Origin: a virus
Length of the DNA: 45,849 bases
Virus record (IMG/VR): IMGVR_UViG_3300009618_000010
Location: 1 to 45,849 of that record
Reading direction: 5' to 3' (one strand)
Below the pieces are notes generated by a model. It had not been told where the DNA came from. It made no database searches and saw only the letters and a list, made by a program, of their open reading frames with translations. Made by a program: the position numbers and the translations under genes. Below are positions 12,751-33,126 of the stretch, in pieces (positions within the stretch are counted from its first letter, which is position 1; each line of letters begins with the position of its first letter).

Positions 12751-13200
12751 CTACGCCTCCGTAGGTGCTTTGGAATCAAAGGAATACATACGATATTTAC
12801 GGCTCATGGCTACGGCATGGTCAAAGCCACCCCGTAGGAGCGCCACGGCATAAAAAATGTCCTGATATTGGCTCTTGAGCACCTGAGCCGTGATCTGCTC
12901 CAAAACTTCCGATTTTTTGCGAAAATCTTCCGATGCAACCCAGGCCAGCGCGCTCATGTGGAGCACGGGCAAGAGAAAATCCTGGTGCTTCTGGAAAAAC
13001 TCGTTTTTGGCGAAGGCACTCAAAAGCGCGAGATCGAAGCATACGGAAGTCTCCGCCGCGACGGGCTTATCCCCGTCGAAAAGATCGTCCTGCTTGTGAA
13101 CCCAGCAATAAAACTGCCCCATAAACGCCTCGGCAGCTTTGTCGCCGCGCGCGATGTCCGCAAACGCTTCTTTTGGTGTCCAGGACATAAATTTAGTCAA
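12751..13200 (-). CDS. Conserved phage hypothetical protein (149 aa)
   Basis: Mainly alpha-helical by eye. The segment FYCWVHKQDDLFDGDKP resembles a motif I know from uncharacterised phage proteins (a 'CHxxDDxxD' pattern), followed by helices and LLRGGFDHAVAMSRKYRMYS. Function is unknown. The start overlaps the end of the 806-aa glycosyltransferase gene by eight bases, so it is translated from the same message. An acidic pair (DD) followed by D could bind metal, but this is not established. Confidence 0.75.
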   Translation of the reverse strand: MTKFMSWTPKEAFADIARGDKAAEAFMGQFYCWVHKQDDLFDGDKPVAAETSVCFDLALLSAFAKNEFFQKHQDFLLPVLHMSALAWVASEDFRKKSEVLEQITAQVLKSQYQDIFYAVALLRGGFDHAVAMSRKYRMYSFDSKAPTEA

Positions 13201-15613
13201 GTTGAAAGTTCAATTCCGCCGCTCGACTCTTTAAAAGTGCCCTGTCGGCTTCCACAAGGTCTTCCTGCCACGCAAGTCTGGCAGTCTCATCAAAATCTTT
13301 GAGCACATTTCCGGGACGTGAGTTTAGACTGTAGTGATCGTGAAAAACTTTCGCCTCTTCGCACCATACATACTTTCCAGCTTTTTTACAGCGGGCCGAA
13401 AGCTCGTTGTCGCATCCGACATGATGGTATCCAGTATGAAAAAACTCCCCTCCAAGCATAGGGAGCAACTTTTTGCTGGCCAGCCAATGCGGATTCTCTT
13501 TTCCGCAGGAGTATTCATCATTGAAGCTGACAAAACCGTCCAGATCAGGGAAATTCTTCTGCATGGCCTCGACCGCGAGCCGCAGCCAGCCTGGTTTCGG
13601 AATGCAATCGTTTCCAAGGAAGGCTACAAGCTCTCCTTTAGACGAATCCACCATCTTTTTTAGAAGTTTAGGCACCCCGGCCCGATTTGTGAAACTGTCG
13701 TGCTCCACAACTACGTCATAATTGGAATACTCCGCAGTTTTGTGCAGCAAATCGAGCATGTTCTTTAACTTCTCTTCTCGGCCCAATGTTGGAATACAGA
13801 CAGTGACATGCGGCTGGCTACTTTTTCCAAAATAGAGCCGCTCCAACACTTCTCTAGGGGCCTGCACGGTGCGCGTCTCACCAACAAAAAGAGGGTCAAA
13901 GGCACTCCCCGCGTCGATGCACGTAATATCAGATCGAACTTTAAGAAGCTCGGCAATCAAAATCTTGCTCATCATCCCGGTTGAGAAAACAAAAAGAGCA
14001 TCCCGTTTGCAGTAATTAAAAAGCTCCTTCTTAACGCGCTCAAAATCACTGAAAGCGTTTTTTAACGGAACCTCGACAAACCGGGCCTTGAGCAACTCTG
14101 CTGCTTGCCGTAACCTGGATGGGCCAACAAAGACTTTAACCCCAGTCCTGGCGGAAACTGCATCCCAAAACGATTTCACTTCGAGAAGATTATTGTCCGT
14201 CCGATGCAAAAGCATATTGAAAGTCTTTTGATTTCGGAAACCTACAACGTGGACACTCCCTGACAAATAAGCAAATGCCTGGATTAACGCGCGGGCTAAT
14301 TCCGGGCTGTAGGTATGCCCATCGCAGTTCTCCCCCTTCACTCCGTCGATGCAGGCGCGCTCCCCGTCCCCCAATTTCACAAAGCTAAATGGCTCCCGCG
14401 CTATGACCGCCTTTTTAAACTCATCCAGCGATAAGCCGGGCTTGAGGTAGAACTGACCATCACTCAGGTATTTCTCGTTGAACGGCTGATAACTTACTGC
14501 CTGCCGCCAGTGAAAACCGCTGCCTGCTCTATCCCCCATCCACCATAGCGCCCAATATAGTAACTCGTGGGGCTGCTGACGGTAATGATTTTCATCGTTT
14601 GCGTAGAAGTCCGTGTTCGGAAGAGCGAGCGCCGCAGAGGCGTAGGCCGCTGTTTTGTGATGGTCGTTTTTCTCAAAAAAGTAGCAGGCAAGGCGCATCA
14701 GCGGTTCCCGCCTGTGACCATCAGCAAGAAAAGCCCGGTTCCACCAATCCAAAGCTTCTTCCGGCTGGTTTAGAGACTTGTAACAATCCCCGATAAAAAC
14801 CATGCTTTGCGCGCGCTCGGCTGCCCAACCATTCATGGTGATATGCCGTTTAAGCTCACGTATGGCCGACTGATACCGGCCTTTATACATAAGCTCTCTC
14901 CCAAAATAATGAGAGTTTCGATCATTTTTCGGATGCAGAAAACAATCCAGCGCGAGGCCGACAAGATAACCGCTGCGATTAGTCGTGAGATTCTGCCAAT
15001 GCTCTATCTTCACGACTTCCGGCCCAAGGTAAATCGACTCAGACGGTGTAATATCGGTGAGAACCTCATGCACAATGCACTCTGAATTCCACTTCGATTT
15101 GAGGCGATTGTAGAATCTGGCGTGCCTGAATTGGATTATAGGGTCTCCAAACGAATCGTGAGCGTAAACAAAATCATGTTCGATTCGCCCCAAGTTTGGC
15201 ATCGACATAACGCTATCAACTGCATCGAGATCAAGCTTCGTAAAAGCCTCATCACAATCCAGAATGCACACCCAATCTCTGCTCGCCAGGCTCACCACAG
15301 AATTTCGCGCGGCGCTGAAATCAAACAGCCTGTCTCCTTCCTTCACAATAGGCTGCTCTCCCCCAACTACAAACTTGTCGTTTATCCCTCTTGCGATTTC
15401 GGCGTCCAGCACGTGGATAAAACGTTCCCCCTCTTCAAAAACAATGCAGCCAAGATCAGCCGCGACTTTAGGCGTTCCATCCGTGGAGCCTGTATCCGCC
15501 AAAATTATTTCTCCGCCGCGCTCCTTAAATTCAGCCAAAGAAGCGATTAGACGAGGGAGAGTCTTAGACTCGTTTTTTGCAATCAGAGCAACTGAGAATA
15601 AGGGAGTTTTCAT
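13193..15613 (-). CDS. Three-domain glycosyltransferase (GT2 - GT-D-like - GT2)
   Basis: 806 aa. Domain 1 (about 1-250) is GT2-type: FSVALIAKNESKTLPRLIAS, then EIILADTGSTDGT and CILDCDEAF as the DxD-like metal site. A helical stretch (about 250-390) has TPR-like features (ALDWWNRAFLADGHRREPLM). Domain 2 (about 395-590) contains FSFVKLGDGERAC, the KxGDGE pattern of the GT-D type glycosyltransferase fold. Domain 3 (about 600-800) is again GT2-like: VTVCIPTLGREEKL, VVVEHDSFTN, FLGNDCIPKPGW. Likely cytoplasmic, adding several sugars to a phage or host glycan or to virion proteins; target unknown. It lies directly after the 224-aa GT-A-like gene, overlapping its end by four bases, inside the tail and virion operon. 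The family calls rest on motif recognition. Confidence 0.85.
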   Translation of the reverse strand: MKTPLFSVALIAKNESKTLPRLIASLAEFKERGGEIILADTGSTDGTPKVAADLGCIVFEEGERFIHVLDAEIARGINDKFVVGGEQPIVKEGDRLFDFSAARNSVVSLASRDWVCILDCDEAFTKLDLDAVDSVMSMPNLGRIEHDFVYAHDSFGDPIIQFRHARFYNRLKSKWNSECIVHEVLTDITPSESIYLGPEVVKIEHWQNLTTNRSGYLVGLALDCFLHPKNDRNSHYFGRELMYKGRYQSAIRELKRHITMNGWAAERAQSMVFIGDCYKSLNQPEEALDWWNRAFLADGHRREPLMRLACYFFEKNDHHKTAAYASAALALPNTDFYANDENHYRQQPHELLYWALWWMGDRAGSGFHWRQAVSYQPFNEKYLSDGQFYLKPGLSLDEFKKAVIAREPFSFVKLGDGERACIDGVKGENCDGHTYSPELARALIQAFAYLSGSVHVVGFRNQKTFNMLLHRTDNNLLEVKSFWDAVSARTGVKVFVGPSRLRQAAELLKARFVEVPLKNAFSDFERVKKELFNYCKRDALFVFSTGMMSKILIAELLKVRSDITCIDAGSAFDPLFVGETRTVQAPREVLERLYFGKSSQPHVTVCIPTLGREEKLKNMLDLLHKTAEYSNYDVVVEHDSFTNRAGVPKLLKKMVDSSKGELVAFLGNDCIPKPGWLRLAVEAMQKNFPDLDGFVSFNDEYSCGKENPHWLASKKLLPMLGGEFFHTGYHHVGCDNELSARCKKAGKYVWCEEAKVFHDHYSLNSRPGNVLKDFDETARLAWQEDLVEADRALLKSRAAELNFQLD

Positions 15614-16284
15614 ATATTTGTTGGAGTAAACTTCTGCAATCCATGCGCGATCTCAAACATTTTTCGATCAGCAATAGCAGTCCCTATATGCCCACACTGA
15701 ATATCACAATCTAACACGGCTCGAACACCCATGCGGTGAAGCCGCCTAAAGAAAAACACATCTTCGCCCAAATACGCTTCTTTATTCACCCCAGCGGCGG
15801 CTTCAATGTTGTTCTGAAACCACCATTCGTCCCCAAACTCTTCCGCCATCCGGTTGAGTAACTCACAGTCCACCAAAAGGCAACCTCCACCAGTTCCACC
15901 CGCTGTAAAAAGGCCGCTGGCTGGTATATCTTGGCAGAAAGTAAACGGGTCGAAATTATAGGCTACAGGAAGAAGCCCTTTTGTATAGTAAACCCCTCCA
16001 ACCACGGGAAAATCGCGGGAAGCAAGTTTTGCAATCCCGCCCGGCGGGATTAAAACATCATCATCCACCATCCACAGATGTGTTATCTCCCCTTTTTTCC
16101 ACAAATCAACGGCAGTCCTGCACATCGCATTGCGTGCCATTGTAACATACATATTGGCCTCGATCTCAAGGCGCTTTATTAGCCCTGAATTCACAGAATC
16201 CAGCAGCATCCCCATTTGATAAGCAAATCCCTCCGCGCATACAGACTTGTAAGTTGGAATTCCCAAAAGGATTTTCTTTGTCAT
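15610..16284 (-). CDS. GT-A fold glycosyltransferase-like protein (224 aa)
   Basis: Starts [18 protein letters not shown], a GT2/GT-A type opening, followed by [17 protein letters not shown] and the acidic cluster [12 protein letters not shown] that would coordinate the nucleotide-sugar metal. [10 protein letters not shown] and [17 protein letters not shown] are typical later elements of small phage GT-A proteins. The start ATG overlaps the TGA of the collagen-like fibre gene (ATGA), implying coupled translation, and the end overlaps the start of the three-domain transferase by four bases. This arrangement suggests that the enzymes act with, or on, the fibre; that is inference. Confidence 0.8.
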
Positions 16285-18764
16285 ACTAGGGATTCCCAGG
16301 CGACTAACGCTGAATTAGCATAAACGGTTATCGTCGAAAGCGTGCTCCCAGCTTCAACCGCAGGATAAACGGTGCAAGCTCCGCCATTTGTTGCTGTAAT
16401 AACGCCAGAAATTCTTACCATGCCTGTCGTCGTCGTAAAAGCAATTAAAGATATACTGTTGGCTGTGTTTGTTGCAGAAATAACCCCCTGAGTAAACGCT
16501 TGAGCAGATGTTGCGCATCCAAATAACGGAGCTAACACAGTTGGGGAACCTGCGGACACCGTAATTCCAAATTTACAAGCAGTGGCCGCAATATTTCCTA
16601 CTGTCATAATCCAGTCAAACACCCAAGTCTGAGAATTGCCAATGGCAAAACCAAGACCAGTGACGTTAGACAGAGCCGTGGTTGTGGTAAAAGTGAGATT
16701 TCCAGATAATACAATTGCTGTTGAATTCACACCTGGGCCGGTATATCCCGTGGGGCCAGTTGGCCCGGTATATCCAGTGTATCCCGTGGGGCCGATTGGC
16801 CCGGTGTAGCCGGTTGGGCCAAACCCTGTATATCCAGTCGGGCCGATTGGCCCGGTGTAACCCGTAGGGCCAGTAAACCCGCTATTAGGCCCAGTGTATC
16901 CAGTATATCCAGTGTATCCAGTTCGCCCGGTATATCCAGTTGGGCCAAACCCTGTATATCCAGTGTAACCAGTCGGGCCGGTTACGGTCGAGTTCGCGCC
17001 CGCTGCCCCGGTGTATCCGGTGTAACCAGTCGGGCCGGTATAGCCCGTCGCCCCGGCAGCCCCAGCGCCTCCGGTGTAACCCGTGGGGCCGGTGTAACCC
17101 GTGGGGCCGTGTGAAAGAGTGCAAACTACACTGTCTCCCGCTGTTATATTGCCCTCAGAAGTAAGAATAGCAGAAGACCACCCAGTCCCCCATCCTGTCT
17201 GGGTTCCTACAAAGCTTACTTGGACTCTAGTAATTACCACGGCAGGGTAATTCCAAGTTGTAGCTGTAGTTCCAAGAAGAATGCAATTTTTCCCGGCTGT
17301 TGCATCATACGATAATCTTACTTCCGAAAATGGGGGATTGCCAGTTATAGCGGCAGTGCAGGCCGCCCATGTATCTGAGCCTCCCCCGAAGCTGTAACCT
17401 CCTATTAAAACTGACCAAGCTCCTGTTGCGCTTGTATAGTCATACCCGACTATTTCTATGGCGAGCATGACATCATCCCATGCGTAAGGCATTATAAATT
17501 CTAGTGTTCCAGTAGGCGTAATATTGCTGCTATAAGAATAAACATCAAAATAAGTAAATATGCCTCCTGCGCCTGTAAGACCGGGAGCGCCAATTGGGCC
17601 AGTATAACCAGTGTAACCAGTCGGCCCGGTAGCCCCAGCGGCCCCCGCACTGCCCGTGTATCCAGTATATCCAGTTCGCCCGGTATATCCCGTGTAGCCA
17701 GTTGGGCCAAACCCTGTATATCCAGTCGGGCCGATAGGCCCGGTGTATCCCGTGGGGCCAAACCCTGTATATCCAGTCGGGCCGATTGGCCCGGTGTATC
17801 CGGTGGGGCCGGTTGCGCCCAATGGGCCTGTGTAGCCAGTCGGGCCAGTATATCCAGTTGGCCCATAATTTAACGGGCAAACAACGCTATACCCTGAAGT
17901 TATATTTGTCTCAGCAGACAAAAGAGCCGCTGACCACCCAGTTCCCCAACCAGTCAAAGCTTCAAAAGCAGTCTGGACTCTGGTGATGACCACGGCAGGA
18001 TTACTCCATGATGTGGCCGTTGTTCCGAGAAGGATGCAGCATTTTGAAGCCACATTATCCCAGGACAACCTGACTTCTGAAAACGGAGGGGAACCACTGA
18101 TTATGGCATTGTAGTCCTGCCAAAATGAACCTGATTGATAGTTAAAACCTCCAATTAAAACAGACCAAGCTCCATCAGAACTGTAATCATACCCGGTTAT
18201 CGTGATGGCAAGCTCAGTGCTTGACCATGTTTTAGGCATGATAAACTCAAGCGTTCCCGTAACCGTTCCGCCAGTATTGTCATACGAAATGACATCATTG
18301 TAAGTATAAACAGTTCCGGTTAATCCGGGCGAACCATAAGGGCCAGTATAGCCAGTCGGCCCGGTGGCCCCAGCGGCCCCAGCGCCGCCCGTGTAACCAG
18401 TCGGCCCGGTCGCCCCAGCGGCCCCAGCGCCGCCCGTGTAACCAGTCGGCCCTGTCGCCCCAGCGGCCCCAGCGGCCCCAGCACCGCCCGTGTAACCAGT
18501 CGGCCCGGTCGCCCCAGCGGCCCCAGCACCGCCCGTGTAACCAGTCGGCCCGGTCGCCCCAGGAGCACCAGGAGCGCCAGGAGCGCCAGGAGCACCAGGA
18601 GCACCAGTTGCCCCAGTCCCTCCGCTTCCACTCCCCGCAACATGCTGCACAGCCTGCTGGCACTTGCGCGTCCATACTGCAACGGCCTGCTGATAATCTT
18701 TTAGATTATGCCCCCCTGTTGAGGGTGTGGGGGGAAGCGTGAATGGGGGTGTGGGTTCGCCCAT
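16281..18764 (-). CDS. Collagen-like tail fibre protein (827 aa)
   Basis: After a 50-residue head with helical [19 protein letters not shown], the protein alternates collagen Gly-X-Y segments ([16 protein letters not shown] type; about 52-145, 300-400 and 560-690) with globular parts. Two globular domains (about 145-300 and 400-560) are clear duplicates: both have [43 protein letters not shown] and GWGTGWS. The C-terminal 140 residues (from [19 protein letters not shown]) are a beta-rich cap like those ending bacterial and phage collagen-like fibres. Expected to be trimeric and exposed on the virion. The DNA of the collagen parts is highly repetitive, so length variation is likely. A short gap (18765-18770) separates it from the hub gene. 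Confidence 0.85.
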
Positions 18765-18770
18765 ACAGCC

Positions 18771-21700
18771 TTAATAGAATCCGCCTGGCCTAGCTAAAAT
18801 CTCGAACTGTTCAATGCGCCATTGAACATCGGGGTCTTGGCTGTAAAAGCGCACCCGCAAATAACGGCCAGAACCGCCAGGATTCACCTTGACAGGAAGT
18901 GGCTGAGTGCCGTCCACCAAAATCGGAAAGGGGTCTGTCCATATGATCGCCGCGCCGCTCAAGCTGGCTTGAGTGCCGACTTGAACATACATCGTTGCGC
19001 CCGCAGGAACCGGAACAAGAGTCGAAAGCTGCAAAGCCAAAACCACGACATCTACATACTTGAAGTTATCCGGTGCCCCAAGATCGTAGTCCATTGATTC
19101 AGAAAGTGCCGTATAGCCCGCGCCTTCCCGATTGTAAACTGAGCCATGCAGCCGAAGCCCTGCATCCGCGCTTCCAAACACAGGAGCGTGGTTTATGCTC
19201 GCGCTCACAAATGTATCCCAATCCAATGAACTGGGAAGCTGCGCCCAGGTTATTTCATTGGCAAGATCGCTGTTTGAAAGCTGGCTCCAAGTTGGGTCGG
19301 TTGACCAATCCACCAACCCAATCGCCGTAGGCTGGAATGAAGCATTGCTGTAAATATCAATCGTGGCGGAATCTTCCACGTAATTCCAGATAAGGACTTT
19401 GAAAGACCCTCCGGTAATGGGATAGATCGTCCAGATTTCTTTTCTATTCTCATTGTGGAACAAAAGAATCTGATTCACCTTTGTCCGATCAAACTCCGCA
19501 AAAAGCTGCCGGGTGTATTGCTGGCAAATGGGCTTGAGATTAGGGCCTCCCTCGTAGAGATACAATTCTTTGTGGCCCAAGAAAAACATTCTCCCGTCGC
19601 CGCTGTCTGTCACCGCGTTGCGGCCAATCAAACCTTCGCCGCTGATTTCATTGTGAATGAAAAAAGTCCCGTTACCTAGGCCAGTGTAGGCAATACTTTG
19701 AATCGACCGGCTTTTGAAAATATAAGCGTAGTCGCCTTGCGGTATGATGTCAAAAATGGGGCCGTTCATGCGGGAGCCGGAGACCACGGTTGACCCGGCT
19801 TCATTCGCATCCAGCGTGAAGAACTGGACTCCATTGGCTGCCACTGTCAGGCCCGCAGGCGTAGCTCCAGTCAAATTCATCAGCGTCAACACCAAGCTCT
19901 TTCCGGTCATTGACGTTACCGTATAATAGTTGTAGTAAACTTGGGTTCCAGTTCCATACACAAAATCACCCTGCGTAACAGTCAGGGAAACCACCTGACC
20001 GGCTACAAGTTGAAGCGGAACGGGGAGTGGTATGCCAGTCCCCGATATGGGATATGATACAGGAGTGAAACCGCCAAGCCCGTTAGGAACATTAGTCGTG
20101 GCCGTTATATCCCCGGAGAAAGTGTCGTTTATTGTTTCATCAGAGAAAGCGGGAGTGAAATAAACGTAAGAGTTTATCGTTTGACCCGGAGCCACTGTTA
20201 CTGATGCAGGCCCGGTAAACACAGCCGAAGGATATGTTATATCTGATACTGTGAGATTAGACTGTCCAGGATTGTAAAGAGAAAACATGGCTGCAACCGT
20301 GCTGCCATACGGAACATCGCCGTAATTCAAACTTCCAGAAGCCACAATCTGAGGCCCTGGCGTAACGCCGGTTCCAAATATAGGCAGGGCATTTGATAAA
20401 TAATCCTGTGCGGCACCTGGATGCGTATAGGTAATCGAAATGCTTCCAGCGTATCCTTGGACTAAAGTAGGCTCAAAGGTTACAGAAAAAGTAGTTGAGG
20501 CGTAGGGAGCGAGACCACTCGCAGGAGGGACTCCAGTTAGGGGTGCCCCGATAACAAACCCAGGAATGCTCGTTGAGGGGAGAATCGGATAAACATAAAC
20601 GCCAACGCCTGAGACATTTGTTATTGTTACCTCGACGGGGGACGTAATAGTGCCAGTATTTACGAATCCGAACTGACAGGCTCCGTTGTCGTTTATAAAA
20701 ACAGACGGAGTAGTCAATGAACTAACACCAGTCCCGTTTACCGCCACATAATTCATGCCATTAGTGGCATTTGAACAGTTGACAGTTACGTCCCCGGTGT
20801 AAATCGCAAACGATGTAGGGGTAAATCTGATCGGGATAACCAGGGTTCCCGGAGCCTCAGACGGCGAGGTAGTCCCAGGAACAGTCCCAGTCGTGAAAGT
20901 GGTGCTAAATCCAGCGGGCACAGTCACACTCGTTATATTCAATGCCGTATTTCCAGGATTTGTAACAAGCACATAGCCGTCTAAAAACCCCGGCTGAGGT
21001 TGAGCGGGCAATGTCTTTACAACTACGCTTCCGAAATTAAAATTTCCAGAGAGGTTAATAATCGCCGTGGCCCCGATTCCTGTTCCAGAAATAGGATACA
21101 CAGTAGTTCCAAGAACAGTCGAGCCAGATGGCCCGGTGCATCCTACAACGATAGTCCCGCTATATGGTATGCTTTGTGTGGGAGAGAATGTTATAGTTAC
21201 GGACTGTGACGCGCCAACAGCAATCGGCCCGGTAAAAGTCCCCGCAAATCCCGCTGGAAGATCAATGCTGTTAATTTCAATAGGGGCATTTCCCGTATTG
21301 GTAAGAGTCAAAAGAGCTTGTGATGTGTCATTAACATTAGTGTTTGGGAAAGTCAAATCCCCCGAAATGCTTAAGCTTGGAATCACAGCGGCGGGATTTG
21401 CAACCTGGACAGTGACGCTTCCTCCGGGTATGGGCTGAACGAACGGAGCCAACAGCGTGAGCACCGCAGACACCACAGTCGAGGCAATCGGAATGTAATC
21501 GGTGAAGTCGTCAATGTCGCTCCATATCAAATTGTCATCCTGCCACAACAAAACGTGATTCTGGAATACGGCCACACCGTCATACTGACTCCCAGCGGGC
21601 AAGCCCGGCAGCGGGAGCGCAGTGGCGCTTGGCGGAGTCCAGTAGAGCGCCGGATTATCATGCTGTGCCAAAATAACTTTATCGCTGAAATTATCTGCAG

Positions 21701-22451
21701 TCCAATTATATCCCGGCGTGAGCGCGGTGCCCTGGTAGAGATAGTTAAAAAATGCCTCATACGAAGTGGCCCCGGCACCGTTAGCCGAAGTCTCCGCGAC
21801 TGAAAAGACCGAATCCTGAGAGCATATCACCAGAGGTGTAGGAGTATCATTGACAAGATTGGCCTGGAAGATCAAGCTGAACGGCCCTCCCAAGAATGGA
21901 TAAGGGTTGCCGCGCCCGGAATTATACACTATACCAACGTCCGCGCTCGACAGCGCCCGCGCCCATACTCCGACTGCATCAAGCGAGAATCCGTCCGGCG
22001 CAGGCCACGACATGAGATTAGGATTTCCCAGTTCAAAATCTTTATATGGAGAAACACTCGATACCGTGGAATCCGCCAACGCCAAAAGCGCGGCGGATGC
22101 CGGAACGCCGTTAAGCCAAATCGTGATCGTGCCTACATTCGGATATGTGCCGCCGGGATTCGGACTGTAAACCACGGCGAAAAAATTCCAGCCGGAATTC
22201 ACTGAGGCGGAAGTCTTCACTGTAGTTGAGATACTCAGTGCAGAATTGTTGACAAGAAATGATAGCGTGCCGTCCTCATTCAACGAAATGCTCCACGACG
22301 GGCCTGTTAAAATCGGGGTGGGCAAATACGGGGTATAAACCGTGCTCAGAGCCGTAGGCTCAAACCAGCCCGTAATCGTAAACGGGCCAGTGTGCAAGGC
22401 CACTAAAGCCGTTGCCGTGCTCGAAAGATATGGAGCAGTGAACGTAGGCAC
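18771..22451 (-). CDS. Tail hub-like protein with LamG part and HYDIN/ASPM-type Ig repeats (1226 aa)
   Basis: Start is GTG 22451 with AGAGG eight bases upstream. Residues 1-175 look like the larger part of a LamG/concanavalin domain (GPFTITGWFEP, FFAVVYSP, ITIWLNGVPA, AVGVWARALSSADVGIVYN). Residues 180-335 resemble the first part of a phage gp10-type hub/propeller (VILAQHDNPALYWTPPS, GVAVFQNHVLLWQDDNLIWS). About 335-840 hold several Ig-like repeats of the HYDIN/choice-of-anchor-D kind (LTLTNTGNAPIEINSIDLP, ITFSPTQ, YPISGTG). From about 840 the hub resumes (LVAGQVVSLTVTQGDFVYG, GPIFDIIPQGDYAYIFKSRS, MFFLGHKELYLYEGG, KEIWTIYP), ending in a receptor-like beta region. The LamG part lacks its first strands; these appear to be on the 283-aa gene. 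Confidence 0.8.
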   Translation of the reverse strand: MPTFTAPYLSSTATALVALHTGPFTITGWFEPTALSTVYTPYLPTPILTGPSWSISLNEDGTLSFLVNNSALSISTTVKTSASVNSGWNFFAVVYSPNPGGTYPNVGTITIWLNGVPASAALLALADSTVSSVSPYKDFELGNPNLMSWPAPDGFSLDAVGVWARALSSADVGIVYNSGRGNPYPFLGGPFSLIFQANLVNDTPTPLVICSQDSVFSVAETSANGAGATSYEAFFNYLYQGTALTPGYNWTADNFSDKVILAQHDNPALYWTPPSATALPLPGLPAGSQYDGVAVFQNHVLLWQDDNLIWSDIDDFTDYIPIASTVVSAVLTLLAPFVQPIPGGSVTVQVANPAAVIPSLSISGDLTFPNTNVNDTSQALLTLTNTGNAPIEINSIDLPAGFAGTFTGPIAVGASQSVTITFSPTQSIPYSGTIVVGCTGPSGSTVLGTTVYPISGTGIGATAIINLSGNFNFGSVVVKTLPAQPQPGFLDGYVLVTNPGNTALNITSVTVPAGFSTTFTTGTVPGTTSPSEAPGTLVIPIRFTPTSFAIYTGDVTVNCSNATNGMNYVAVNGTGVSSLTTPSVFINDNGACQFGFVNTGTITSPVEVTITNVSGVGVYVYPILPSTSIPGFVIGAPLTGVPPASGLAPYASTTFSVTFEPTLVQGYAGSISITYTHPGAAQDYLSNALPIFGTGVTPGPQIVASGSLNYGDVPYGSTVAAMFSLYNPGQSNLTVSDITYPSAVFTGPASVTVAPGQTINSYVYFTPAFSDETINDTFSGDITATTNVPNGLGGFTPVSYPISGTGIPLPVPLQLVAGQVVSLTVTQGDFVYGTGTQVYYNYYTVTSMTGKSLVLTLMNLTGATPAGLTVAANGVQFFTLDANEAGSTVVSGSRMNGPIFDIIPQGDYAYIFKSRSIQSIAYTGLGNGTFFIHNEISGEGLIGRNAVTDSGDGRMFFLGHKELYLYEGGPNLKPICQQYTRQLFAEFDRTKVNQILLFHNENRKEIWTIYPITGGSFKVLIWNYVEDSATIDIYSNASFQPTAIGLVDWSTDPTWSQLSNSDLANEITWAQLPSSLDWDTFVSASINHAPVFGSADAGLRLHGSVYNREGAGYTALSESMDYDLGAPDNFKYVDVVVLALQLSTLVPVPAGATMYVQVGTQASLSGAAIIWTDPFPILVDGTQPLPVKVNPGGSGRYLRVRFYSQDPDVQWRIEQFEILARPGGFY

Positions 22452-22461
22452 TTAAACCTCT

Positions 22462-23934
22462 TTATGTTAAAATTCTGTCCCACGTCCATTGCCAAACAAT
22501 CGTCAACGTATAAGTATTGCTTTTTTGCTGCGGCATTGTAAAAAGATAAATCAATCCCTCAGCCCCGCCGCTTGGGTCAATAGTGCAAAGCTTGAAAATG
22601 GCATTGCTGTTTCCCTGATCGACAGAATATGTTACACTCCAAGTAAGCGTGTAACTTCCAGATACGTAACTTCCAGCAACAAGGGCCTGTGTCCCTCCCG
22701 TGGGGGTGTCCCCGCCGCCAGGAAACACGCCAGTTCCGGGAAAAGTCGGAAGCGCATTAGTATCCGTAAGGATAGCCATATACTTGCTCTGAGACGGCTC
22801 ACCAAACGCGGAACCGTTGTTTGGAACACTGAAAGCAATAGAACTTCCGTCGGTTCCAACCCCGGAGAATTGATGACACCCAAGTATTTCATGTCCGATG
22901 GTATTAGTGTAAAGCTGATCGGCGTCAGTTCCGCTGCTGGTTACAGTTATGGCACTACCACTAGGAGTAGCGGAAACAGAAAGAGTATTAACTAAATCCG
23001 TTCCGGCAGGATTTGCATAGTAAACGGTTCCAAAAGTTATGCCTGTCGGAGCCGTCGTGCCTTCAAAAAATACAGGAGTATTTTGCGTAAAAGCAGGTTG
23101 TCCTGCCATAGTGATTGTGGGTGAAGAAGGAGTAAAGGCTACAGTATAAAGCAACGCTGGCCATCCAGAAATTTGCACCCCTGGCGGAATTCCCATATTC
23201 CTAAGACGCGCAGAAATAGGTGTCACCGTAACCAACGCCTGATAGACCACACGAATCTGTTGGCCAGTAACAACGGCAACAGGCGCAGCCGAGAAAATGC
23301 CGCGCATATTTAAATTCGCCCCAGCCGACGAGTTATTGGAAAATCCAACTTCGTAGTATAATTCATCCCCGGATTCAATGGGAAAATCGAAAGTGCGCGT
23401 GTGGGTGTAAAGACCAGCCGAGTAAGTCGTGCCACAGTTTCCAGCCCCAGTCAAGTAGTTATTTGTGCGATGAACCTCGGCGTTAAGGCCAGTCTGGTTT
23501 ATCGCAAAAACTTCAAATACTGCCGACGATTGGGCAAGTGTGGCAGAAAGAGTGACTGTAGTAGAATTAGTGTAGTGTGTAATTACGGCTGAGTTAGTAG
23601 TCCCAGGAAAATAGATAAGCATCCCCGTCATACCGCTGTTAAAAAATCCAGCGAAGGAAGTGCAGGTTGTTCCGCTGGTCGAAGCTGTAACCGCTCCTGA
23701 AGAAACTACGGTCGGCGTAGAATCAGTTCCCACACAACAGTAAGTAAATAGGGCGGCAATCGTAATCGACGCAATGTTGTTCATCCCGTTTTCGAGAATG
23801 AGATTGTTTGCCCAATCGGTCTCACGAACAATCTTGCCGCAATCGGGGTGTCCCGGCCTGCGTTCAATTACCTGCGCTTTGAAGCGATTAGAAATACCCG
23901 CCTCTGTCCCATTGATGAAAATTTCTTTATGCAT
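22462..23934 (-). CDS. Putative tail/virion protein (490 aa)
   Basis: The frame is open further upstream, but ATG 23934 is preferred because it lies just after the stop of the 283-aa gene (23939) and upstream codons would overlap that gene. The N-terminus MHKEIFINGTEAGISNRFKA followed by ETDWANNLILENGMNNIA resembles openings of phage tail-fibre-like proteins. The rest is Ser/Thr/Gly-rich and beta-like, ending FTMPQQKSNTYTLTIVWQW. No enzymatic motif is seen. It lies between two genes that appear to encode parts of one hub protein, so it may be part of an insertion, or an accessory fibre that assembles with the hub. Confidence 0.75.
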   Translation of the reverse strand: MHKEIFINGTEAGISNRFKAQVIERRPGHPDCGKIVRETDWANNLILENGMNNIASITIAALFTYCCVGTDSTPTVVSSGAVTASTSGTTCTSFAGFFNSGMTGMLIYFPGTTNSAVITHYTNSTTVTLSATLAQSSAVFEVFAINQTGLNAEVHRTNNYLTGAGNCGTTYSAGLYTHTRTFDFPIESGDELYYEVGFSNNSSAGANLNMRGIFSAAPVAVVTGQQIRVVYQALVTVTPISARLRNMGIPPGVQISGWPALLYTVAFTPSSPTITMAGQPAFTQNTPVFFEGTTAPTGITFGTVYYANPAGTDLVNTLSVSATPSGSAITVTSSGTDADQLYTNTIGHEILGCHQFSGVGTDGSSIAFSVPNNGSAFGEPSQSKYMAILTDTNALPTFPGTGVFPGGGDTPTGGTQALVAGSYVSGSYTLTWSVTYSVDQGNSNAIFKLCTIDPSGGAEGLIYLFTMPQQKSNTYTLTIVWQWTWDRILT

Positions 23935-23938
23935 ATAT

Positions 23939-24790
23939 TTATCCGTAACTTCCTGACAAAATCGCTGAATCCAGCGCAAAACTATCTGAATGCGAAATCG
24001 GCCCGATAACTGTCTCAGTATAGCTTCCCGAAGATAATGCCGTATCCAGAGAAACCGAATCACCCGGCGCGGAAGACACTATGACCACAAGGGCATAAGT
24101 CCCCGAATTCAGCGCACTATCCAAAGAAATCGAATCGCCTGGCGCATCAGATACAATGACAGTCTCAGTATAAATTCCCGAATCAAAAGCGCCGTCCACG
24201 GATATGGAATCCCCCGGCGCGTTGGATATTAACACTGTAGGAGTCATGGCCCCGGACGAAAGCGAACTATCCAGCGTGAATAAATCTTTCGGAAGTCTTT
24301 CGATAAGGGGATTTATAAACCCGCTTGATAAGGCCGAATCCAGTGTTGCTGAATCTCCGCCTCCGACTACCGGGCTAATCGGAGGCATCGGGGGGAACAG
24401 CGCCGCCAGTCCGAGTATCCCCGGAGTGGTCAATATATCCGGCACACCGGGAGCCGTGCCAGGCACGTCAGTAAGATTATAGCCGTTAGGCGTGGCGTCA
24501 AACCGGGTGCCATTTGGCTCCTGCAACGGCCAATACGCCACTATCCCTTGCAGTAATTCAGAAGACAAAAAAATACGCTGATGCCCCGGAGCCGCACATA
24601 CAACGCCGTCTTCATATCGGACATTCTGAGCAACAGCCGAAGACCGTTGATAGGCCGCGCTGCTGAGAATCGTGCCCTGAATTTCGCTGCTCTGCGTTGG
24701 CAACAAGTCAGCCGAGATCGAAGGCAAACGAGTTACGAGACCCCTGCTCGGAGCTTTTACGACAACTGAGATTGGCTTTGCGCGGCGCAT
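23939..24790 (-). CDS. Hub N-terminal part with incomplete LamG domain and C-terminal repeats (283 aa)
   Basis: Residues 1-72 resemble the N-terminus of gp10-type phage hub proteins (APSRGLVTRLPSISADLLP, AVAQNVRYEDGVVCAAPG). Residues 80-130 read like the beginning of a LamG domain (GIVAYWPLQEPNGTRFDAT...NGYNLTDV...GLAALF) but the domain is not completed. From about 145 to the end are five or six units of about 27 residues with the core DS(I/V)SLDSALxSG. The start ATG overlaps the stop of the 237-aa gene (TAATG). The missing part of LamG is found at the start of the 1226-aa protein, downstream of the 490-aa gene. A functional two-chain hub or a decayed fragment are both possible. Confidence 0.75.
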   Translation of the reverse strand: MRRAKPISVVVKAPSRGLVTRLPSISADLLPTQSSEIQGTILSSAAYQRSSAVAQNVRYEDGVVCAAPGHQRIFLSSELLQGIVAYWPLQEPNGTRFDATPNGYNLTDVPGTAPGVPDILTTPGILGLAALFPPMPPISPVVGGGDSATLDSALSSGFINPLIERLPKDLFTLDSSLSSGAMTPTVLISNAPGDSISVDGAFDSGIYTETVIVSDAPGDSISLDSALNSGTYALVVIVSSAPGDSVSLDTALSSGSYTETVIGPISHSDSFALDSAILSGSYG

Positions 24791-25503
24791 TAGATGGCAA
24801 GGGCAAGATAGGTATATGCCCGGAGATTGGTGCTAAAAAAAGTATTTCCGTGCAAGATCGTAAATCCGTCAGCATTCCACTGCACGTCATTTAAAAATGG
24901 ACTAATGAGACCTGTAACAGGACTGTCCCACGATTCGTGAATCGATGAAATTCCGCCAGACGCTTCTGAATTAAAAGCAATCCCAATGCCGGTATGTGTT
25001 GAATCTACCACAATCAAAACCGTAGGAGCAAAGCTTAAACCGCTTACTGTTATAGTATCAACCGATGCGGCAGTTCCATTATATGTTCCCACTTTTGCAA
25101 AACCTGCCACAAGTGAACTGATATTTGACTGGGCTAAGCCTACCGCATTATTCTGAATCGAATTGGTAGCGACAGAATTAGCAGGCATCACAATACCCGA
25201 CGCCAGCAAGCCCGCCGTGATTGAAAGAAGTTGAATTTGCGCCGGTGTGACCGCCTGGGGAGCCAAAAGGCCCGTAGTAATAGCAAAAGGTGCAATGTCT
25301 GCGGTCTGGATAGCACCCGCAGTAAAGAGCGATGCGCCGCCAGCCGCTCCGCCTGCCTTAATCCATCCAGGAGTGAAGAGTCCGGCATCTTCCCAAATCT
25401 GTTCGATCAGGGCGTCCAAATCCACTTTTAACTCGCGGATTCGGCTTGCACCTAATGTGACCGCTTCACTGTCTGCCGGAACTGTCTCGGTTAAATAGCT
25501 CAT
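24790..25503 (-). CDS. Putative tail fibre/virion protein (237 aa)
   Basis: Opens MSYLTETVPADSEAVTLGAS followed by RIRELKVDLDALIEQI, a head I associate with short phage fibre or tail proteins. Residues 45-130 contain quasi-repeats with the core ITxGLLA (FAITTGLLAPQAV, LSITAGLLASGIV), typical of beta-helical or trimeric shaft segments. The C-terminal 100 residues (TVSGLSFAPTVLIVVDSTHT) form a beta-rich tip. Overlaps the start of the 283-aa gene by one base and follows the adaptor gene by two bases, so it belongs to the connector and tail operon. Confidence 0.75.
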   Translation of the reverse strand: MSYLTETVPADSEAVTLGASRIRELKVDLDALIEQIWEDAGLFTPGWIKAGGAAGGASLFTAGAIQTADIAPFAITTGLLAPQAVTPAQIQLLSITAGLLASGIVMPANSVATNSIQNNAVGLAQSNISSLVAGFAKVGTYNGTAASVDTITVSGLSFAPTVLIVVDSTHTGIGIAFNSEASGGISSIHESWDSPVTGLISPFLNDVQWNADGFTILHGNTFFSTNLRAYTYLALAI

Positions 25504-25505
25504 AG

Positions 25506-26177
25506 TTACATTCTCAATTTTCGGCCAACGACTTCAGAATAAGCATCCTGGTAAGAAGCCTGCCGGTATTTGGCCTCGAATTTTCCCTCTGCCTTTTGCG
25601 ATTCATCGTCATTGATGTTGGAGAACGCAATCGCCTTTGCCTTTTCCAAAATCATATTTGGATAAGCGGTTAAAAGCGGTGACGTATCCGTAGGATTGAC
25701 AAGGGCTGGCAGATACGCATACATATTAACTTCGAGATTAAACGCCTCAATCAGAGGCTCAACAATCCCGATCTTTGCTCCCACGGATGCGCCAGCCGCC
25801 GATTGCGCTGGTGTAGGCGCGCCGCGCACGAGAAACACGCGCGGAGGCCATACAAACATTGGAGCACCACCCCAGGCCCAAACTCGAAAAATTTCCTCTT
25901 CCTCAAAGATGGTCGTGGCAGGAATTCTCCCGCCGTCATCCGCAACGAAATTGATCGCGGGCGCGCGACGAAGCTCCTTAAAATTCGACTCAAGCGCAAC
26001 AAGCTCATACCCGGCCCCTGGCCCAAGCACGACCGGCTCTGTGACCTTCATGCACGCCCAAGAACGCCGATTCTCGATCTCAATGAGAGCCTCATTGACG
26101 AAATTGCCATAGTCGGGCGCAAGATCGCTTCGGAGAATCGCTCTCCCCAGCCGGGCTTGAATATCAGAAAAATTCAC
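25506..26177 (-). CDS. Head-tail adaptor-like protein (P22 gp4-like position)
   Basis: The frame is open from 26231, but its first 18 codons run through a strong hairpin; GTG 26177 gives a natural start (VNFSDIQARLGRAILRSD). The N-terminal helical motif DIQARLGRAI...DYGNFVNEALIEIENRRSW is typical of phage head-tail adaptors of short-tailed phages, and the C-terminus (KAIAFSNINDDESQKAEGKF...YQDAYSEVVGRKLR) is again helical, as in that family. About 223 aa. Expected to bind the portal and join it to the hub encoded just downstream. No Shine-Dalgarno sequence precedes the GTG; a U-rich tract and hairpin do. The family call is moderate. Confidence 0.7.
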   Translation of the reverse strand: MNFSDIQARLGRAILRSDLAPDYGNFVNEALIEIENRRSWACMKVTEPVVLGPGAGYELVALESNFKELRRAPAINFVADDGGRIPATTIFEEEEIFRVWAWGGAPMFVWPPRVFLVRGAPTPAQSAAGASVGAKIGIVEPLIEAFNLEVNMYAYLPALVNPTDTSPLLTAYPNMILEKAKAIAFSNINDDESQKAEGKFEAKYRQASYQDAYSEVVGRKLRM

Positions 26178-26222
26178 AAAAAATAAAAGTGCCAAAAAGG
26201 GACACACCCCTTTTGGCACTTT
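26178..26222 (-). terminator. Rho-independent terminator abutting the adaptor start
   Basis: On the minus strand 26222-26186 forms a 16-bp stem (AAAGTGCCAAAAGGGG paired with CCCTTTTTGGCACTTT, one G-U pair) with a five-base loop, followed by TTATTTTTT. On the plus strand the G-U pair becomes an A-C mismatch, so it fits minus-strand transcription from the capsid unit. The tract runs directly into GTG 26177. Confidence 0.8.
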
Positions 26223-26249
26223 GGAAAGCACCTGTCCCGTGGCCGGGGA

Positions 26250-26420
26250 TTACTTCTTCATTACGGAGCCGGGAGCGTTCTTGACCTGGTTTTCCCTGTC
26301 AACCGCTTCCACGTTTTTCTTGGGCGGTTCCCCGTCCAGGATGCGCTCGGCGTATTGTTCGTTGACCAAGCCCGATTTCACATCAGACTTCGCATATGTC
26401 GGCTTAACATTGTCACCCAT
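26250..26420 (-). CDS. Small hydrophilic protein (56 aa)
   Basis: Start ATG 26420 is chosen over an earlier in-frame start because TAGGAGAC lies 8-14 bases before it and the earlier start would overlap the 109-aa gene more. Sequence MGDNVKPTYAKSDVKSGLVN then a charged end (VDRENQVKNAPGSVMKK). No family recognised. It is the last gene before the terminator at 26178-26222 and thus part of the capsid transcript. Confidence 0.65.
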   Translation of the reverse strand: MGDNVKPTYAKSDVKSGLVNEQYAERILDGEPPKKNVEAVDRENQVKNAPGSVMKK

Positions 26421-26431
26421 AATTTTGTCTC

Positions 26432-26761
26432 CTACTTGATTTCCACAATTCCCCACGCCTTATTTTTCGAGGCTGCTCGCAAATTTGCGGCCAGCTTCTC
26501 GTCATCCGTTTTCAGAAACGAATTCGGCGCATATCCGGCGTCATTATTCCGCCGAATCAAACGAAACTGAAATCTCGTCCCGTCTGCAAACTTTATCACG
26601 TCCGCTACGCCAAAAAGTTTCACAAACTGAAACTTCGGTGGAGTTGTAGGAGGCGTTCCCTTCTGCCCTACGCCTCCCTTATTCTCCTTGGCGTCCTCAG
26701 CGGTTCCTGAAACCCTTCTCAGGGCTGCCGCTGGCGTCAAAATTTCTTTCTCTTCGGCCAT
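26432..26761 (-). CDS. Small protein downstream of the capsid gene (109 aa)
   Basis: MAEEKEILTPAAALRRVSGT opens a flexible charged region with a Pro/Thr linker (TPPTTPPKF). The second half (FVKLFGVADVIKFADGTRFQ...LRAASKNKAWGIVEI) looks folded. Its position after the major capsid gene fits a head-decoration or head-completion protein, but no signature supports either. Confidence 0.65.
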   Translation of the reverse strand: MAEEKEILTPAAALRRVSGTAEDAKENKGGVGQKGTPPTTPPKFQFVKLFGVADVIKFADGTRFQFRLIRRNNDAGYAPNSFLKTDDEKLAANLRAASKNKAWGIVEIK

Positions 26762-26809
26762 AAGTGTAATGGACTAAAGGCACTCCCTTACACCATGTGC
26801 CGTGCTGCC

Positions 26810-26825
26810 CCAGGCTTACGCCTGG
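26810..26825 (-). other. Tetraloop hairpin containing the capsid stop codon
   Basis: The minus strand reads CCAGGC-GTAA-GCCTGG: a perfect 6-bp stem closed by a GNRA-type GTAA loop. The TAA is the stop codon of the capsid gene. There is no T-tract, so it is not an ordinary terminator. It could protect the 3' end of the capsid message. Confidence 0.5.
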
Positions 26826-28072
26826 ATGGCAGTCAAATTGTAGGCGTAACCAAACGCCTCAGCAAACCGCAGCTTCAACCCCAGCTTGGCCCGGAACTGC
26901 TCCATGTAGCTGTCTTGACCGGGGGTTTGGATGTTAGGCTCAAGGAACAAAGGTTCCAGAGTCTTCTGCATTACATGAGCCAAGTCCGCTACGAAAATCC
27001 AGGACGAAAACGCCGGAATTTCTTTCAACAGCGGATGGAAGGCCAGATCAAGCTCACCGAAAGGCGTATTGATAACCGTGATATTCATTCCCCACACGGT
27101 TTCCTGGTTCATAATTCGGAAGCCGTTGGTCGCGGAATTAGCCAGTGCAGAAAAAGCCGCGTAGGCTGTCGGGCCGCAAAGACCCAGCTTGGCGTCAGAA
27201 CCAACCGTCATAAATCCCTGCATCCAGGGGGCAACCTGAGTCGCATAGGAACAGGTGCCACTTCCGCCGTTAAGAGCGTTTTCCGGGACGGCAGTGTCGA
27301 TAGCGTCTTTGATGCCGCCCGTGTAATAGACGTAGCCATTGGAGCCGGTCAGACGTTGCTTGGTGCCCAACAGGAAAGCAGCCTCAATGTCCTTGGAGAT
27401 TTTTTCCAGGGCTTGAATCCGGCGCGCCTTGAGAGGCCCGGCCATATCAGAGCGCAGCTTATTGGCCTTGAAGGCATTGGTAACATCAATCGTGGCATTG
27501 AAGGTCTGAACGAAATTCGTCAAGATTTGCGGTTCCTCATAGCTGGCCCGCGTCGGCAAAGCACCTTCGTCTTTGCCCAAGGTGACGATGGCGAGAGTGT
27601 CGCCCTGCACAAGCGTATAACCCGTCAGCGTGCCGCCATTGATAGCGCGGGCAACCGTAACGGTATCGGAAGTCGGGTCAGCCGTGACCTGAATCATTTC
27701 ACCCGTCCGCATGTTGCGAAGAACATGGCCCTGGGCCAAAAATGTCCAGGCGGTAATATCAGTCGCGCCGGTCGAGTCAGTAGTAACAACTACGGTGCCA
27801 GCCTGCCCGGATTGAACGGGTGCCACAGCATTGGCGGTCTCAACATAGACCTGACGGTTTACCGGGTCTCGCTCAAACCAGTTGAATTCAGTATTTTCGG
27901 CAGGCTCGGCTTTGAGGCGCGACATCAGCCCGAAGAGCGTGCTGCCCGCGTTCATCCCCTTGCTGTTCCGCACGAGAATTGTATCCTGATACTCACCAAC
28001 CAAGTCGGCCTTGGTGTCGAGATCGCTGTTGGCGTTGCTGGTGGAGAGTAAACCTGCGATTGCACTTGGCAT
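26816..28072 (-). CDS. Major capsid protein, HK97-like fold (DUF5309/SU10-like)
   Basis: 418 aa. The layout matches HK97-fold capsid proteins of the SU10/DUF5309 kind: an N-terminal arm and E-loop region (LFGLMSRLKAEPAENTEFNW), a beta-rich domain with HVLRNMRTGEMIQVTA and VARAINGGT, a PTRASYEEPQILTNFVQTFN stretch, long helices (RSDMAGPLKARRIQALEKIS), IEAAFLLGTKQR, the P-domain region GGIKDAIDT, and the conserved late block GMNITVINTPFGELDLAFHP. It follows the scaffold-like gene and has its own promoter with a 45-nt leader and AAAGGAA ahead of the ATG, as expected for a highly expressed structural protein. The long frame opposite is a shadow. Confidence 0.88.
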   Translation of the reverse strand: MPSAIAGLLSTSNANSDLDTKADLVGEYQDTILVRNSKGMNAGSTLFGLMSRLKAEPAENTEFNWFERDPVNRQVYVETANAVAPVQSGQAGTVVVTTDSTGATDITAWTFLAQGHVLRNMRTGEMIQVTADPTSDTVTVARAINGGTLTGYTLVQGDTLAIVTLGKDEGALPTRASYEEPQILTNFVQTFNATIDVTNAFKANKLRSDMAGPLKARRIQALEKISKDIEAAFLLGTKQRLTGSNGYVYYTGGIKDAIDTAVPENALNGGSGTCSYATQVAPWMQGFMTVGSDAKLGLCGPTAYAAFSALANSATNGFRIMNQETVWGMNITVINTPFGELDLAFHPLLKEIPAFSSWIFVADLAHVMQKTLEPLFLEPNIQTPGQDSYMEQFRAKLGLKLRFAEAFGYAYNLTAIQA

Positions 28073-28117
28073 AAATTATTCCTTTGTTACCGTGTGACTA
28101 CTTTGGTCATCATTAGT

Positions 28118-28147
28118 AGTGTAGCAAGAAACAGGCCCACTTGTAAA
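28118..28147 (-). promoter_or_regulatory. Promoter of the major capsid gene
   Basis: On the minus strand: TTTACA (28147-28142), 18-bp spacer, TACACT (28123-28118), then a 45-base leader containing AAAGGA nine bases before ATG 28072. Unlike most promoters here it has a real leader and Shine-Dalgarno site. Confidence 0.55.
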
Positions 28148-28173
28148 TACCCTTTGATTCTTCTCGTAAAGAA

Positions 28174-29169
<996 letters not shown>

Positions 29170-32016: not shown

Positions 32017-32646
32017 CTAACCTGCGGGCGAGTAATCTGTCCATAGACGTTCACCTTTCTTCAAATTCTCCGTTGCCCAAAGCGGCTGGAGATTGGTGTA
32101 TGAAAAACAGGCTTTCTGTTGCTTTGGGTCTGTCAGGTCGAACTCTTTAATTGGCTTTACATGGTCAATGTGAAAAGACCCTGGAATAGCCCATGACATA
32201 CCTGGCCTGAATTTTGACTCTAAATGTTGTCGAAGAAAATCAATTGAGCACCCGATAAGCTCTTGTGTTTTAAACGCTTTTCTACCGTCCCGTTCGCGTA
32301 AAGCAGAGCGAATTCGGTTCCGCAGCCGATTGCCGATTTGACAAAGTAAGGTCTTCTTGTAATTCTTCCGCTGCGCTATGCCTTTACTGCTTTTTGCATA
32401 TTTACGACATGCAAGTCTTGATGCTTCTGGGCTGTTCTGACGCGCTTGCCTAGCTTTTTTAAGAATAGCTTCCCTATGTCGAAGATAAAACCGCTTTCTT
32501 TTTGCGCGGCATCGCTCAGGGTTCTTCTTTTCCCACCTTCGGTTCTGCGCAGAAATTCTATCTTTGTTTTTCAAGTAACGTAAATGATTTCTTTCCCGCT
32601 TTCTTGCAGAAATGGCAACTGGGTCGTGATACTCTTGAAGAGTCAT
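32017..32646 (-). CDS. HNH homing-type endonuclease (209 aa)
   Basis: A basic N-terminus rich in Arg/Lys (SARKRERNHLRYLKNKDRIS...RCRAKRKRFYLRHREAILKK) is followed by the HNH region: IGCSIDFLRQHLESKF, GSFHIDHVKPIKEFDL (first His-Asp-His part) and SYTNLQPLWATENLKKG (Asn and final residues). This is the layout of small free-standing or intron-encoded phage homing endonucleases, which nick or cut DNA at an allele lacking the insertion. The ATG follows the stop of the 128-aa gene directly (TAAATG). The first 11 residues (MTLQEYHDPVA) are not typical of the family and could be left over from a displaced neighbour such as the portal. Confidence 0.9.
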   Translation of the reverse strand: MTLQEYHDPVAISARKRERNHLRYLKNKDRISAQNRRWEKKNPERCRAKRKRFYLRHREAILKKARQARQNSPEASRLACRKYAKSSKGIAQRKNYKKTLLCQIGNRLRNRIRSALRERDGRKAFKTQELIGCSIDFLRQHLESKFRPGMSWAIPGSFHIDHVKPIKEFDLTDPKQQKACFSYTNLQPLWATENLKKGERLWTDYSPAG

Positions 32647-33050: not shown

Positions 33051-33126
33051 TGGTAGCGGGGGCGGGACTTGCACCCGCGACCTCCACGTTATGAGCGTGA
33101 CGAGCTACTCACTGCTCCACCCCGCA
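33051..33126 (-). tRNA. tRNA-Met (CAT), initiator-like
   Basis: 76 nt with encoded CCA (33053-33051). Acceptor 7 bp with a mismatched first pair (T1-T72); D-stem GAGC/GCTC; anticodon stem TCACG/CGTGG with loop CTCATAA (CAT at 33093-33091); perfect T-stem GCGGG/CCCGC with loop TGCAAGT. The mismatched 1-72 pair and purine-pyrimidine pair A11-T24 are features of bacterial initiator tRNAs, and the body is close to fMet tRNA. The three G-C pairs of the initiator anticodon stem are only partly present, and the usual GG of the D-loop is absent. It lies between two head genes. Confidence 0.85.

Follow-up and report, generated by a model that had tools for sequence, protein, structure and literature searches.

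A podophage tail nozzle encoded in two genes that divide a LamG domain

The window analysed here is the complete 45,849-nucleotide stretch of the IMG/VR virus record IMGVR_UViG_3300009618_000010, and its tail nozzle is encoded on the minus strand. In transcription order, the locus contains an SU10-type adaptor gene (25506..26231; Pfam SU10_adaptor, E=1e-11, and synteny), present directly upstream in the syntenic block, a gene for a 237-aa protein (24790-25503), the gene for chain 1 of the nozzle (283 aa; 23939..24790), an intervening gene for a 490-aa fibre-like protein (22462..23934), the gene for chain 2 of the nozzle (1226 aa; 18771..22451) and, directly downstream, a gene for a collagen-like fibre (16281..18764). 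The genes for chain 1, the 490-aa protein and chain 2 are co-directional and close-packed. The arrangement recurs in a second, nearly identical IMG/VR contig of the same phage, which shows 0 base differences over positions 18409-28583. Two glycosyltransferase-like genes (13193-15613 and 15610-16284) are also located within the tail gene cluster.

The N-terminal segment of chain 1 (approximately residues 1-76; 24563..24790, minus strand) resembles a podophage nozzle (MRRAKPIS...NVRYEDGVV..APG; MRRAKPISVVVKAPSRGLVTRLP...NVRYEDGVVCAAPG) and was delimited by alignment to unsplit nozzles of related phages. It is followed by the opening of a LamG domain (24389..24562, minus strand), where strand 1 (IVAYWPLQE; IVAYWPLQEPNGTRFDAT) and strand 2 (GILGLAALF) were identified by alignment with the unsplit LamG of the relatives L107 and L108. 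A first-pass annotation, made from the DNA letters alone, had described the 283-aa protein as a hub N-terminus with the opening strands of LamG, and the alignment to unsplit nozzles confirms this description. The C-terminal half of chain 1, up to the stop codon, consists of six degenerate repeat units, each about 25 residues long (23942..24364, minus strand; main period 25 aa). Repeats of about 27 residues had earlier been placed between the two hub genes; they lie instead within chain 1 itself. No relative was found to have this repeat array. Chain 1 is 49% identical to its 136-aa homologue in relative B, 49% identical to that of relative C and 50% identical to the N-terminus of the unsplit nozzle of L107, while a search with chain 1 among named phages gave no match.

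The gene for chain 2 begins at a GTG codon of its own, preceded by an AGAGG ribosome-binding site, and its product opens with the continuation of LamG (TFTAPYLSS...GPFTITGWF), after which the nozzle body follows. The LamG remainder, from the third strand onward (21885..22448, minus strand), was assigned by Pfam Laminin_G_3 (E=8e-9) and by alignment to unsplit LamG; its score for PF13385 is 36.2 bits against a cut-off of 27.6, covering model positions 12-150 of 151. Residues 878-1224 match positions 192-522 of PHROG 3287 (E=4e-32), and the earlier reading of the 1226-aa protein as one that starts in the middle of LamG and goes on as the hub is thus borne out. Between nozzle segments of chain 2 lies an insert of about four Ig-like domains of the ASH/HYDIN type (20010..21390, approximate limits, minus strand; Pfam PF22544/PF15780/PF07610), which is absent in the unsplit L107 and L108; the count of four comes from motifs read in the chain 2 sequence. 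A three-tryptophan loop (19218..19289, minus strand) resembles the short-tail-fibre dock loop of phage SU10. The loop is present in the window, L107 and L108 and is absent in relatives B and C, where it has been lost from the corresponding regions (L100:15929-16897 and L106:13827-14795). Fibre attachment may differ between B and C on one side and the window and its unsplit relatives on the other.

Judged by these similarities, the hub of the window is a podophage tail nozzle of PHROG 3287, kin to the nozzles of SU10 and Bruynoghevirus. The designation as a gp10-like hub stands as far as a nozzle hub is meant, but the type is that of SU10 and Bruynoghevirus and not specifically P22 gp10. Both the body match and the N-terminal segment of PHROG 3287 nozzles are found in the window, the latter on chain 1, and the four Ig-like domains in the propeller together with the three-tryptophan dock loop are those of the long, SU10-type nozzle. 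In SU10 the adaptor binds a hexameric nozzle, in which N- and C-terminal parts of the protein together make up the platform; the nozzle has four Ig-like domains and a dock loop with Trp839/847/857 (PMC9509320). The nozzle of this Kuravirus (gp17; PDB 7z47) shares with the window the SU10-type adaptor and portal, the beta-propeller hub, the four Ig-like nozzle domains and the three-tryptophan fibre dock loop, and its C-terminal region matches the nozzle profile built here (A6). It differs in being a single chain of weak sequence similarity, and LamG is not mentioned in the part of its description used here (PMC9509320). By analogy with SU10, the N-terminal segment of chain 1 is expected to contribute to the platform domain. 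The nozzles of Pseudomonas phage Bjorn/Bruynoghevirus and PDB 9nwi_Y (PHROG 3287) are homologous to the window hub (22-23% identity by BLAST), and profile A6, in which the chain-1 rows are included, matches the solved nozzle 9nwi_Y over its entire length. Nozzles of this type are, however, encoded as a single gene of about 515 aa and contain neither LamG nor the Ig-like insert.

An uninterrupted nozzle, for which a search among relatives had been suggested, is present in L107 (IMGVR_3300046463_000715), together with L109 and L110, and in L108 (3300046517_001648). In these phages, of which L107 and L108 are uncultivated, a single gene encodes the whole nozzle (868 or 871 aa), and its complete LamG is placed as in the window. 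The gene order around the nozzle is common to the window, B, C and the unsplit phages; the adaptor is upstream and the fibre gene downstream in the unsplit phages as in the window, and the downstream gene is collagen-like in relative B as well. The major capsid protein of the window is 70-76% identical to that of each of B, C and the unsplit phages (70% for L107/L108). Scanning of prokaryote genomes with the nozzle profiles did not reveal any relative.

When aligned on the unsplit relatives, the two reading frames of the window (24790-23939 and 22451-18771, minus strand) tile one continuous LamG, and joined they give one canonical nozzle, as the first-pass annotation had proposed for a tail hub split in two genes through this domain. 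The joined LamG is 246 aa in length in the window, 233 aa in B and 235 aa in C; the unsplit LamG measures 232 or 235 aa. LamG strands 2 and 3 form a hairpin whose tip is the site of the cut, and the stretch interrupting LamG is about 1.94 kb (approximately 24394-22452) and not the 2.3 kb estimated earlier. The Pfam LamG model begins only past the break in the unsplit relatives too, and therefore the Pfam match alone cannot judge whether chain 2 is complete. Alignment to the unsplit relatives indicates that chain 2 is without the first LamG strands and that these reside on chain 1, so that neither chain in the window would hold a complete LamG sandwich; the LamG/ConA-like sequence match (PF13385) occurs in both split and unsplit forms and is here spread over two chains (three in C). 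A profile of the joined LamG aligns across the break with solved ConA-like domains, at marginal scores. AlphaFold2 models were of low confidence, with a mean pLDDT of 53 for the unsplit 868-aa nozzle and 50 for its LamG alone. Foldseek on the low-confidence LamG model returned generic ConA-like folds with TM-scores <0.45 and was set aside as evidence.

The same LamG hairpin is cut in two divergent relatives, B (IMGVR_3300046485_000051, L100), which was reached via a terminase 76% identical to that of the window, and C (IMGVR_3300050026_000607, L106); further nozzle loci were found with the chain 1 profile. Both chains of B and of C are about 46-53% identical to those of the window. In B the nozzle is in two parts (L100:11848-12258 and 13292-16900). 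Its chain 1, of 136 aa, ends just past the second LamG strand (FALAAVFPALSALP, then the stop codon), the gap is filled by two ORFs (192 and 133 aa) that matched no family, and the stop and start at the last junction overlap. Chain 2 of B (1202 aa) carries a 44-aa N-terminal extension (L100:13292-13430) with two short repeats, the second of which resembles LamG strand 2 and was aligned from profile position 44. Going by this resemblance, the LamG of relative B may be partly self-completed by the chain 2 extension.

In relative C (chain 1, L106:9001-10059; chain 2, L106:11187-14798) a second cut is present. Chain 1, of 352 aa, is cut right after the first LamG strand and continues into a Ser/Gly-rich linker and another domain. 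The middle gene, of 372 aa, begins with the second LamG strand, GKFNKAAFF (MTTVLHVTSQAGKFNKAAFF), and chain 2, of 1203 aa, begins at the third; only a few bases separate the genes. Among 3504 six-frame segments of the C locus, GKFNKAAFF matches strand 2 of B and the window best, so that one LamG is spread over three genes in C. The adaptor-like region of C corresponds to residues 290-440 of a 440-aa ORF (L106:6419-7741), and its adaptor may carry an N-terminal addition. Two distant nozzles (L024 and L051) were also considered; their short ORFs appear to result from simple frame breaks, no gene lies in between, and they are not comparable splits.

The genes in the gap differ among the window, B and C and are unrelated between these lineages. 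The 490-aa gene of the window, correctly placed between the two hub genes by the first-pass annotation (ORF 23934-22462, minus strand), is fibre-like by its match (E=3e-14) to PHROG 4176, a tail fiber protein. In its product no LamG strand was recognised, and no homologue was found in the six relative records searched, a search that had no positive control in those records. An Rfam search returned a tRNA only and no group I or II intron, and comparison of the intervening ORFs with family profiles gave no endonuclease match.

Codon positions were compared pairwise among the split lineages. Second positions are 71-79% identical in chain 1 and 65-69% in chain 2, while third positions are 36-39% and 34-38% identical, respectively. 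Second positions are thus far more conserved than third positions, which indicates that both chains are under purifying selection. The LamG strands are equally conserved on the two chains across the three split lineages (33-43% identity on chain 1 and 34-43% on chain 2). Drift would be expected of strands that no longer served the domain. Reading frames and starts of the split genes are intact. In a tree of the C-terminal part of the nozzle, the split phages group together (support 91/94), the unsplit pair (100/98) stands beside them, and distant single-gene nozzles without LamG fall outside. The simplest history would be that an ancestor gained LamG in a single gene, that the gene was split once on the way to the window, B and C, and that a second cut followed in C.

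The conserved split in three lineages, the purifying selection and the retention of the LamG strands on chain 1 make complementation the best explanation, with indirect support; of the two readings offered by the first-pass annotation, this is the one that we retain. The nozzle of the window is probably assembled from two polypeptides that complement each other through shared domains. Chain 1 would give N-terminal platform strands and the first two strands of the inserted LamG (ConA-like) domain, and would associate non-covalently with chain 2, with six copies of each in the hexameric nozzle. Chain 1 would thereby be built in twice, as both the LamG and the platform beta-sandwich would be shared with chain 2. 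Because the break is at the tip of the LamG hairpin, the C-terminus of chain 1 would point outward with its extra modules, displaying the 25-aa repeats in the window and the Ser/Gly linker and domain in C. We infer the physical complementation, the hexamer stoichiometry, the outward display and the accessory-module role from these comparisons.

A rather unlikely alternative is that chain 1 serves as an accessory protein in its own right, and that chain 2 folds LamG without its first strands and makes no LamG contact with chain 1. The nearly end-to-end coverage of the Pfam LamG model by chain 2 and the extra strand-like segment on chain 2 of relative B agree with such a view. Unsplit relatives do have the earlier strands, however, and there too the model starts at this point. 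Further, conservation in the LamG strands of chain 1 equals that in the remainder of the domain, a constraint not needed in free segments, and chain 1 also bears the nozzle N-terminus, required for the platform by analogy with SU10.

The other reading of the first-pass annotation, an element splitting an essential gene, fares worse in both of its forms, given the conserved break, the varying gap genes and the lack of an intron or endonuclease match in the searches made. That a recent insertion or decay broke the gene and left remnants could be suspected from two pieces of one canonical protein with unrelated coding sequence between them, but it is very improbable. The same break, with a different insert in each case, occurs in three divergent lineages, both parts are under purifying selection with starts and frames intact, and its conservation in B and C refutes decay for the lineage as a whole. 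We give hardly any credence to a gap that is an intron or intein-like element removed to yield one fused protein. The uninterrupted form in relatives would fit, yet Rfam gave no intron match, C has two separate cuts, the reading frame of chain 1 stays open over about 150 residues of structured repeats before its stop, chain 2 in the window has its own start and a clear ribosome-binding site, and the intervening genes are fibre-like or without an assigned family. All three known split lineages come from metagenomic contigs, as do the unsplit relatives, and with every record a metagenome assembly an assembly artefact has to be considered; the agreement of the two contigs of the window phage, the intactness of all junction genes and the occurrence of the split in two more lineages in syntenic context make it most unlikely.

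Under complementation, the break would also be a site where accessory virion modules accumulate, with fibre-like genes settled in the gap. This docking role is a weaker claim than complementation, suggested by the different chain-1 additions and the different gap genes across the three lineages. It is possible, if tentative, that the split LamG acts as a modular socket, whose cut ends carry exchangeable adhesin or fibre modules; strand complementation would hold these modules to the hub, and as many as three chains would share one domain, as in C. Nozzle hubs are essential and are known as single chains. In the window and B the nozzle is instead encoded by two genes, and in C by three LamG-bearing genes; a limited search of the open literature found no report of a split nozzle. 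If complementation is correct, such a hub, stably divided among two or three chains with beta-sandwiches in common, would be a split-protein system of natural origin in the virion. It would also illustrate how a core structural gene can be opened in phages to admit new surface modules. The naturally evolved fragment pairs are ready-made for tests of domain complementation.

A scan of the DNA for motifs gave nothing useful. Just upstream of its portal gene, L108 encodes another, separate protein (L108:832-1833) that contains an entire LamG on one chain, and this domain is related to the nozzle LamG (25% identity, E=2e-9). An endonuclease VII-like gene lies between the terminase and portal genes of the window (32017-32646). 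Its homologue in relative C (L106:7738-8271) is about 0.7 kb upstream of chain 1, and a mobile endonuclease may thus have moved near the split nozzle in that phage. A tRNA gene (33054-33126, minus strand) is present beside the structural genes of the window, and positions 1-632 form a long tandem array of about 42 copies of a 15-bp repeat.
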